From positions 1 through 64,000 of the forward strand of contig JAIQFI010000031.1 of NCBI GenBank assembly GCA_020073345.1: a DNA stretch of 64,000 nucleotides. The letters are read 5' to 3'. The stretch comes from Terriglobia bacterium (GTDB lineage: Bacteria; Acidobacteriota; Terriglobia; Bryobacterales; Bryobacteraceae). The notes beneath the pieces are model-generated. The model was not told where the DNA came from. It was given only the letters and a program-made list of their open reading frames with translations, and did no database searches. The translations under genes and the position numbers were made by a program. Positions 1 to 36,062 of this stretch are shown here, piece after piece (the first letter of the stretch is position 1; the number at the start of each line of letters is the position of its first letter).

Positions 1-19
1 GATACACTGGTATCACTGG

Positions 20-33558: not shown

Positions 33559-33734
33559 GGAGAAACGGCCGTCCAATCGCTGTATCCCATAGATAATATG
33601 GGGCTTGGGAGCCACAAAGCCCCCCGTAGCCCAGCGCGTCGAACTGTTGTAACCTAGCAATGAGCCGGTGCGCCTATTTTCTTGTAGGTATTGGACTTTA
33701 AGTACCGCCGGTAACACTGGGAGTGGCGGCGGTC

Positions 33735-34310
33735 ATGTTGGTTGACTTCGAACTCATTGAACGGGCTCGGAGCGGTGATGACAGCGCATTTAACCAGGTC
33801 GTGCAGGCGTATCGCAAACGGATCCTGGGGACTATTGCGCGCCTCATCGGCAGGCCGGAGGATGTGGAAGACGTCGGGCAGGAAGTGTTTCTCCGGCTGT
33901 ATTTTTCGCTGGACCAGCTGAGGACGGCGGAAGTATTCGAGCCGTGGCTGTACCGGCTGACCGTCAACGCGGCGTACGATTATCTGCGCCGGCAGCGGCG
34001 GCGGCACGAGAGCCGCATGTCGGATTTGAGCGAGCAGCAGGTGATGATGGCGGATGCTGCCGCAGGTGGGAAACGCAGCACAGAAGAAACACGCCGGACG
34101 AAGATTCGGGAGACCGTGGACGATCTACTCGGGAAAATTTCCGAGGAAGACCGGATCCTGTTGACGCTTAAAGAAGTAGAAGGGTTATCTCTCAAGGAGC
34201 TAGAGAAGATATACCGGGTGAATGAGAACGCTCTGAAGGTAAGATTGTTCCGGGCTAGGCAGCGGGTTCTAAAGGCTTACGAGGCCGGGGAGCCCGAGGT
34301 GGGTGAGTAG
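33735..34310 (+). CDS. ECF-type RNA polymerase sigma factor
   Basis: region 2 RPEDVEDVGQEVFLRLYFSLDQ; region 4 LLTLKEVEGLSLKELEKIYRVNENALKVRLFRARQRV. Confidence 0.93.
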   Translation: MLVDFELIERARSGDDSAFNQVVQAYRKRILGTIARLIGRPEDVEDVGQEVFLRLYFSLDQLRTAEVFEPWLYRLTVNAAYDYLRRQRRRHESRMSDLSEQQVMMADAAAGGKRSTEETRRTKIRETVDDLLGKISEEDRILLTLKEVEGLSLKELEKIYRVNENALKVRLFRARQRVLKAYEAGEPEVGE

Positions 34311-34334: not shown

Positions 34335-34655
34335 ATGGATCGCATGAAAGATAGGCTCGACGCGCTATGGGTTGAGTATCGGGAGGTAACGCCTGATCCC
34401 GAGACCGGCCCCAACTTCATGCCGCAACTGTGGCAGAAGATCGAAGCCCGCCGCGTTGAAACCACGTCCGTTTTTCGCCGGCTCGCCCAGATTTGCGTGA
34501 TGGCCACCATCGCTTTGGCCCTGGTCATGAGCGCAGTGCTGATTCCCCACAATAATTTCGACGAAGTATTCTACAGCGGAACCTACGTTGATATTCTCGC
34601 CGCGGAGCACTCCAACGATTATGTGGAGGCACTTCCGGCGGGAGACTTCCGATGA
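34335..34655 (+). CDS. Hypothetical single-TM protein, possible anti-sigma factor
   Basis: 106 aa, one TM segment, immediately downstream of ECF sigma. Confidence 0.5.
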   Translation: MDRMKDRLDALWVEYREVTPDPETGPNFMPQLWQKIEARRVETTSVFRRLAQICVMATIALALVMSAVLIPHNNFDEVFYSGTYVDILAAEHSNDYVEALPAGDFR

Positions 34656-35068
34656 ACTTCTCCCGCAAGAGTATCGCGCTGTACGTGGGGCTGGTGTTCG
34701 TGAGCGGAGCGGTGCTGGGTGTTTTCGGCGATCGCCTGTACACCGTGACCACGGTGACCAAGGCCAAGAACGCCAAGCCGAGTCCCGAGGAGTTCCGGCG
34801 CGGTTACCTCGGATTCATGCAAAAACGTCTGACTTTGACCGAATCGCAGATTACCAAACTGGGCCTGATTCTCGATGAGACCCGGGCGCGCATGAACGAA
34901 GTCCATGATCGGACGATTCCGGAACAGCAGGAAATTCAGAAGTCGCAATCCGAAAAGATCCGCGCGTTGCTGACACCTGCTCAGCAGGCCGAATACGATG
35001 TTGTGGTCAAGGAGCGCAGGGAGCGGATGAAGAAGGGCGGCCCTCGGGGCGGCCCCGGCGGATTCTGA
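34652..35068 (+). CDS. Spy/CpxP-like (LTxxQ) membrane-anchored protein
   Basis: N-terminal TM; LTLTESQITKLGLILDETRARMNEVHD...IRALLTPAQQAEYD. Confidence 0.6.
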   Translation: MNFSRKSIALYVGLVFVSGAVLGVFGDRLYTVTTVTKAKNAKPSPEEFRRGYLGFMQKRLTLTESQITKLGLILDETRARMNEVHDRTIPEQQEIQKSQSEKIRALLTPAQQAEYDVVVKERRERMKKGGPRGGPGGF

Positions 35069-35504: not shown

Positions 35505-35753
35505 TTACGCCGGCTTTTTCTTCGCGGCAGCCGCAGCAGCCTGGGCGTCACGGACCTTCTGGTACTTCTTTTGGAACCGGTCGACGCGACCCTCGGTGTC
35601 AATCAGCTTCTGCTTTCCGGTGAAGAACGGGTGGCAGTTGGAGCAGATTTCCACGCGGATGTCGCCCTTGTGAGCCGAGCGCGTCTTAAACGTGTGCCCG
35701 CAGGCGCAAATGACGTTCACTTCTTCGTAGGCGGGGTGAATTCCAGCTTTCAT
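35505..35753 (-). CDS. rpmE: 50S ribosomal protein L31
   Basis: [65 protein letters not shown]+ (zinc) type. Confidence 0.95.
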
Positions 35754-35770
35754 GGGAACCCCTATTCTAA

Positions 35771-35812
35771 CACAAAGCCCTCTGCACAAGGCTCTAAACA
35801 CAAGGCCCCGCC
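35771..35812. repeat. Three imperfect 14-bp direct repeats
   Basis: cacaaagccctctg / cacaaggctctaaa / cacaaggccccgcc. Confidence 0.5.
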
Positions 35813-35839
35813 CACGGCTCTTGCGGGCCGAGGCGGGGC
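35805..35839 (-). terminator. Terminator-like hairpin between the 36027 leader unit and rpmE
   Basis: GCCCCGCC-T-CGGC-loop-GCCG-TG-GGCGGGGC then CUUGUGUUU on minus strand. Confidence 0.55.
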
Positions 35840-36028
35840 TCTGTGATCGTTTTTCAGACTCTCTTCGCGTTGAGGGGGCCGTTCCACAGGAGCAGCGGCC
35901 TCGACACTGATCGAAACCTGAACGTTAGCGGGTCGACTTTAACAGTCGGCCACCTCACGCGTGGTTTGAGTGCTGTTTTTACTACTGCCAGATATCATTA
36001 GACTGGACCACCTCCTTCCTCAGTGATG
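35840..36028 (-). ncRNA. Candidate rpmE-upstream leader / sRNA with short ORF (coordinates approximate)
   Basis: Consensus-like promoter, extended SD, 19-codon sORF, CGACT-GTTAA-AGTCG hairpin, downstream terminator-like stem; no ORF >60 aa on either strand. Confidence 0.5.
35939..35998 (-). CDS. Candidate 19-aa leader peptide
   Basis: MISGSSKNSTQTTREVADC*; preceded by AAGGAGGTGGTCC (36005-36017). Confidence 0.35.
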   Translation of the reverse strand: MISGSSKNSTQTTREVADC

Positions 36029-36033
36029 CCTTC

Positions 36034-36062
36034 ATCTTAAGACCTGATCCAAAAAGTGTCAA
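36034..36062 (-). promoter_or_regulatory. Sigma70-type promoter
   Basis: -35 TTGACA (36062-36057), exactly 17 bp spacer, -10 TAAGAT (36039-36034) on minus strand. Confidence 0.65.

Follow-up and report, generated by a model that had tools for sequence, protein, structure and literature searches.

A probable free-standing gene for a translated, structured RNA in the Acidobacteriota, remotely related to the actinobacterial sRNA Ms_IGR-5

The window, a 64,000-nucleotide stretch of contig JAIQFI010000031.1 from a Terriglobia bacterium, carries on its minus strand the L31 gene rpmE and, upstream of it, a compact block comprising a promoter, an extended Shine-Dalgarno (SD) sequence, a short open reading frame (sORF) and several predicted RNA structures (Table 1). 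The promoter (TTGACA at 36062-36057 and TAAGAT at 36039-36034 of the minus strand, separated by a 17 nt spacer) was the single promoter-like site retrieved by a sigma-70 scan across 800 bp (0.2 expected), and transcription is predicted to start near 36028 on the same strand. The SD block proper, AAGGAGGTGGTCC, lies at 36017-36005 (minus strand) and the ATG at 35998 follows 6 nt past its CC, both as read in a first-pass annotation of this DNA, from which the P1 helix, the P3 hairpin and the pseudoknot were absent. Of the terminator-like element described in that annotation, the stem was retained, a terminator-like hairpin with T residues being present in 76 of 106 homologous loci, whilst in the window itself the T run behind it (CTTGTGTTT) is weak and a terminator caller did not score the stem as a terminator. 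The window also encodes, at 33723-34310 of the plus strand, a 195 aa ORF resembling an ECF-type RNA polymerase sigma factor, behind which lie two small ORFs (34335-34655 and 34652-35068).

Table 1. Features of the minus-strand unit and its neighbour, in order of transcription.
Feature	Position in window	Strand	Basis or remark
Sigma-70-type promoter, TTGACA-17-TAAGAT	36034..36062	-	Sequence, promoter scan, homologous loci
Pseudoknot 5' strand, TCACTGA	36020..36026	-	Predicted partner is the P3 loop
Extended Shine-Dalgarno, AGGAAGGAGGTGGTCCAGTC	36001..36020	-	20 contiguous pairs with own 16S 3' end
19-codon sORF, MISGSSKNSTQTTREVADC and stop	35939..35998	-	Open in 111/111 distinct homologues
P1 5' strand, CGCGTGAGGTGGCC (last sORF codons)	35948..35961	-	Contains SD-like GAGGTGG
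Stop-codon hairpin P2, CGACT-GTTAA-AGTCG	35934..35948	-	Stem of at least 4 bp in 82/99 homologues
P3 hairpin, GGTTTCGA-TCAGTG-TCGAGGCC, conserved loop CAGTG	35897..35918	-	Pairing and compensatory changes
P1 3' strand, CGGCCCCCTCAACGCG	35866..35881	-	Pairing and compensatory changes
Terminator-like GC-rich stem, GCCCCGCC/GGCGGGGC	35805..35839	-	Arms 35839-35832 / 35812-35805
rpmE (L31)	35505..35753	-	Neighbour only, outside the unit

A BLAST-type search recovered the block in 37 of 61 relatives. A pattern scan of named genomes returned at least 119 stretches, nearly all of which, among the matches listed, were labelled Bryobacterales, Bryobacteraceae or Acidobacteria; because the ATCACTG and SD letters were fixed in the pattern, conservation within them is not independent evidence there. 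With a covariance model (R1), the element was located in 235 of the order's 258 genomes (157 of 164 good-quality genomes; 79 of 84 genera), as a single copy in nearly all of them, and the lack of conservation in relatives that the first-pass annotation had named as telling against its reading was thus not observed. The promoter proposed there likewise proved real and conserved, the layout TTGAC-16..19-xAnnnT being found in 112 of 115 homologous loci and in none of 109 control windows. At class level, R1 gave weaker matches in other families, at sites with the same promoter, the same 5' block and an sORF ending in E-V-x-x-x. A sequence-only model (R2), built on these class-level sites, retrieved strong sites in several further families of the phylum (E 1e-5 to 1e-11, model E-values being rough), with one marginal match in 200 Pseudomonadota as a check on specificity. 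R2 matches near 20 bits that spanned model positions 6 to 32 only were not counted; they resemble the antisense of 16S 3' ends, as checked in the window's own genome (contig C19). The contigs derive from MAGs and, outside the Acidobacteriota, the direct search covered the Pseudomonadota.

A gammaproteobacterial match (L127), having neither promoter nor sORF, was attributed to chance, and a plasmid search gave no match. There were also several elements in unexpected records. A near-perfect Bryobacterales-type element (L233, G698:C327:493-657; 137.6 bits) was present in a genome assigned to a different family, f5, representing either a misbinned contig or a transfer, and Bryobacterales elements occurred in records labelled as a Bordetella parapertussis MAG (L122, CALQCC020000012.1) and as Armatimonadota (L114, JAKORR010000992.1), both of which are probably mislabelled or misbinned.

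The structure of the element was assessed on a MAFFT-based alignment of 55 divergent sequences. P1, which joins the last codons of the sORF to a strand about 75 nt downstream, was paired in 86% of cells, and seven of its 14 pairs showed compensatory change (for instance GAGGTGATCG/CGATCACC in L109 and GAGGTGATCG/CGGTCATCTC in L073), and P3 was paired in 89% of cells, with compensatory change in five of seven pairs. The covariation score of 0.254 compares with 0.179 in shuffles, none of 500 being as high, and with 0.114 or less when the partner was slid along. The 5' end of the RNA (ATCACTGA) is complementary to the P3 loop TCAGTGA, forming a predicted pseudoknot with an invariant core, the TCACTGA strand of which was paired in 93% of cells. 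Base 9 and its partner were A-T in 90 cases, G-C in 10 of 10 and A-C in three; C was found in the loop of all 10 elements with G at base 9, versus three of 111 others (Fisher p = 2e-12). The pseudoknot strands of family f6 differ yet are complementary (5' CGCTAG, loop CTAGCG or TAGCG; L272, L273 and L275), and no pseudoknot is evident in most Acidobacteriaceae-like (f8) copies.

The stop-codon hairpin of the first-pass annotation, with the stop codon in its loop, is present, with weaker evidence than the other structures: 82 of 99 distinct cases had a stem of at least 4 bp around the stop codon, whereas 54 are expected from shuffling (and no more than 68 in any of 200 shuffles), and a compensated form, CGGCT/AGCCG, occurs. 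In L038 (from 7890; the same element as L022 and L092), a hairpin-like insert, CGCACTGCCCGGACAGGCTGGTGCG, follows soon after the stop and the P2 region is longer. Two other pairings were rejected. A local hairpin reported by RNAalifold (AUCACU/GGUGGU) is nearly invariant, uninformative on itself, and in competition with the pseudoknot. A switch in which the SD pairs with the P1 3' strand follows from the GAGGUGG common to the ORF end and the SD, which places it beyond the covariation test, and such pairing is absent in family f6, whose RNA word is different.

Amongst the homologues, the sORF ranged from 12 to 22 codons in 11 length classes, opening with an ATG 4 to 10 nt past the SD block and stopping at a constant structural place. 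It was open in all 111 distinct homologues, with no internal stop in any of them as opposed to about 59 after shuffling, and the two alternative frames were closed in 37 and 107 of the 111. The 19-codon frame first noted can hence be accepted as real and, judged from its evolution, it is translated. Differences between close pairs numbered 86, 135 and 124 at codon positions 1, 2 and 3, with no third-position excess, and 181 codon changes were non-synonymous versus 51 synonymous, from which it follows that the open, in-frame state is conserved and most of the peptide is not. What persists phylum-wide is a C-terminal motif, E[VG]A[DE]x-stop, in the form of REVADC/S in Bryobacterales and REVTEA, SEVAEA, SEGAEA, REVAAA, SEVAAT and similar termini in other families; as the last residue may be C, S, F, G, R, P or A, the terminal Cys of the first-pass annotation is not general. 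Translation and the C-terminal residues are all that is retained, a pattern suggesting that what matters functionally is that the frame is translated, not which peptide results.

The alternative, in which the 12-22 aa peptide ending in E-V-A-D/E-x is itself the product and the RNA structures tune its expression, accommodates an ORF that is intact everywhere, a C-terminal motif kept phylum-wide and in the Ms_IGR-5 consensus, and the retention of E-x-A-E-A in family f6 despite alteration of the RNA word to GAGGGUGCU. We nonetheless regard such a small-protein gene as unlikely, in that the peptide is mostly variable with no third-position bias, its C-terminal codons double as a P1 strand, and V or D is replaced by G in copies whose P1 stays paired (L048, L098 and L113). 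In the variable part of the sORF, AT-ending codons dominate (AGT, 160 times, AAT, TCT and TGT; also ATA and AGA), GC3 is 0.35 within GC-rich surroundings across all Bryobacterales loci, and, a few codons past the start, AGT or TGT is nearly constant. Literature searches with the peptide strings returned unrelated text only.

No part of the element is more conserved than the SD block, around which 20 contiguous bases can pair (G-U allowed) with the 16S 3' end of the same genome (GGCTGGATCACCTCCTTTCT; contig G000:C19, L331), at -38.8 kcal/mol. The complement extends in part past the usual anti-SD, into helix 45 of the mature subunit. Both the conservation and the pairing would suit a non-coding decoy or sponge that holds 30S subunits or pre-16S rRNA by its 20-nt complement, the ORF being incidental, but this is very unlikely given that every distinct homologue, across the 11 length classes, retains an open frame bounded by start and stop codons, and that part of the complement would sit in helix 45 of the mature 30S. 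A tmRNA-like role was set aside, no tRNA or tmRNA gene having been called in the window.

The first-pass annotation had offered an L31 leader, a leader-peptide attenuator and an sRNA or small protein as possible readings, of which the last is supported. Among 109 assessable Bryobacterales loci (distinct elements only, without the chance match L127, and with automatic ORF calling), rpmE followed at +219 to +384 nt in 75, a convergent gene in 15 and another co-directional gene in 19; in the 34 loci without an adjoining rpmE, the element was still intact. Well-supported convergent neighbours were a DEAD-box helicase (L038), alkaline-phosphatase-like genes (L043 and L087) and a transposase-like gene (L036), these names being read from the sequences without a family search. 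Adjacency to rpmE was confined to Bryobacterales, with no L31 gene found within about 2 kb of the element in other acidobacterial families, and comparison of relatives placed the conservation across the transcript and its promoter, ending ahead of rpmE.

Because the element is intact where rpmE sits elsewhere, the 15 loci whose next gene is convergent among them, and has no L31 gene nearby in other families, autogenous control of L31 through an rpmE leader is most improbable. The 75 adjacent loci speak for such a leader and recall known L31 leaders (e.g. RF03158), but the Rfam L31 leader models gave no match in the window and a terminator-like stem separates the element from rpmE. Attenuation of the downstream gene, which the short ORF, overlapping helices and terminator-like stem might bring to mind, has a negligible probability, since the element persists without rpmE behind it, the next gene varies and is often on the opposite strand, no co-directional downstream gene is constant among the Bryobacterales loci, and the ORF holds no run of regulatory codons. 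On this synteny, the block is a free-standing gene, neither L31 leader nor attenuator.

Rfam searches of the window returned nothing at gathering cut-offs, and the best matches, Rothia-sucC and CC2171 at E about 1, were on their own taken as chance. The model of the actinobacterial sRNA Ms_IGR-5 (RF02471; cut-off 45 bits) gave no match in the window, whether at its gathering score or with E allowed to rise to 10. In relatives, matches were obtained at L251 (E 3.4e-4 for a 401-base search), at five loci with scores between 21 and 27 bits, at the G037 element from the Bryobacterales order (E 1.8e-4 genome-wide) and, at an R2 site in another acidobacterial class, at L325, with 50.3 bits (E 1.4e-8), which exceeds the cut-off of 45. 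Across 151 genomes, RF02471 matched 13 places at E <= 0.01, with 12 of the 13 coinciding with R1 matches. An Rfam family match had been named at first pass as what would make the element known rather than novel; none exists for the window at gathering, whilst homologous sites of its relatives do match Ms_IGR-5.

Both RNAs are independent genes with the stop codon inside structure. The 5' ACAC..GGAAGGAGGUGGUCC of Ms_IGR-5 corresponds to AUCACUGAGGAAGGAGGUGGUCC in the window, its printed consensus contains ACACAAGGAAGGAGGUGGUCC, and the consensus codons UUG AUU GAU UUA UGG ACA UGU GAG GUG GCU GCC CGC UAG, which we read as an ORF for MIDLWTCEVAAR and a stop, end in the GAGGUGGCU word (GAGGUGGCnn..stop; GAGGUGGCCGACUGUUAA in the window). 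A 3' block, AAUYCC..CAGUCACC, before the terminator is clear in other acidobacterial families and not clear in the window. The two differ in that the Rfam structure has no 14-15 bp P1 and no pseudoknot, the C-terminus is EVAAR as opposed to REVAD[CS], and the window copy falls under any reportable RF02471 score. As RF02471 matches the same sites as our models and these consensus features are shared, homology is well supported, and the element is, by this comparison, a remote relative of Ms_IGR-5 forming a distant, unrecognised branch; formal RF02471 membership of the window copy is unsupported, being below the Rfam cut-off. Ms_IGR-5 transcripts have been reported in S. lividans (PMC8079986), S. 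avermitilis (PMC8780764) and M. smegmatis (PMC10454040), and Ribo-seq reads on it in M. abscessus and M. smegmatis (PMC4974804), with the caution that structured RNAs can yield such reads, which are hence no proof of translation (PMC4974804). The passages of this literature that deal with transcripts and footprints give no function for it.

The alphaproteobacterial sRNA CC2171 (RF01867) starts with cAAcaAucGAAAGGAGGUGAUCCAGU, and its Pseudomonadota copies carry a 14-25 codon ORF directly after the same SD and then a terminator. It differs in lacking the EVA motif and any recognisable form of P1 and P3, it scored 13.6 bits in the window versus a cut-off of 75, and the likeness may be convergent. 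In the Pseudomonadota loci of this family (L279-L290), GAAAGGAGGTGATCC is followed immediately by the ORFs (e.g. VSHRLDQRSESAVTWISASAGVRA and VSYLKRCHLAGIAR, each with a stop), so that what Rfam lists as an 'sRNA' may double as a tiny mRNA. The S. meliloti rnTrpL, described as a dual-function sRNA (PMC10117765), is likewise both structured RNA and tiny mRNA, but is a leaderless attenuator product, whereas the element has its own gene and extended SD.

That the element is a free-standing, translated, structured RNA related to Ms_IGR-5 we consider highly probable. Our best guess at its nature is a translation-controlled structured RNA and, with less assurance, it is likely that the gene, nearly always one per genome, specifies a structured RNA, about 200 nt long, which doubles as a tiny mRNA. 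It may further serve as a ribosome-supply switch acting in trans. For such a switch, 30S subunits would load strongly at the SD and ribosomes would translate the 12-22 codons and finish inside the P1/P2 structure; by reading into P1 and stopping beside P2, they would render translation and folding mutually exclusive. Each passage of a ribosome would open P1 and P2, and a ribosome on the SD would compete with the adjoining pseudoknot strand, so that ribosome supply would set whether the RNA is open and translated or closed, and in one of these two forms it would act in trans, as sensor or effector. Taken alone, the switching mechanism is a tentative proposal that we infer with considerable reserve.

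More doubtful still is the possibility that the element, Ms_IGR-5 and perhaps CC2171 belong to a single ancient class of bacterial RNAs that load ribosomes; its members would be near-universal within their phyla and would combine a maximal SD with an sORF whose translation switches the fold, free ribosomes being reported or buffered in trans. An RNA gene present once per genome across much of a phylum, with an actinobacterial relative, suggests a basic role, for which no study was found. Acidobacterial annotation gains a gene missed by current Rfam cut-offs, and, with translation of a short frame recognised as conserved, what Ms_IGR-5 does can be put to the test in laboratory strains, M. smegmatis and Streptomyces among them.
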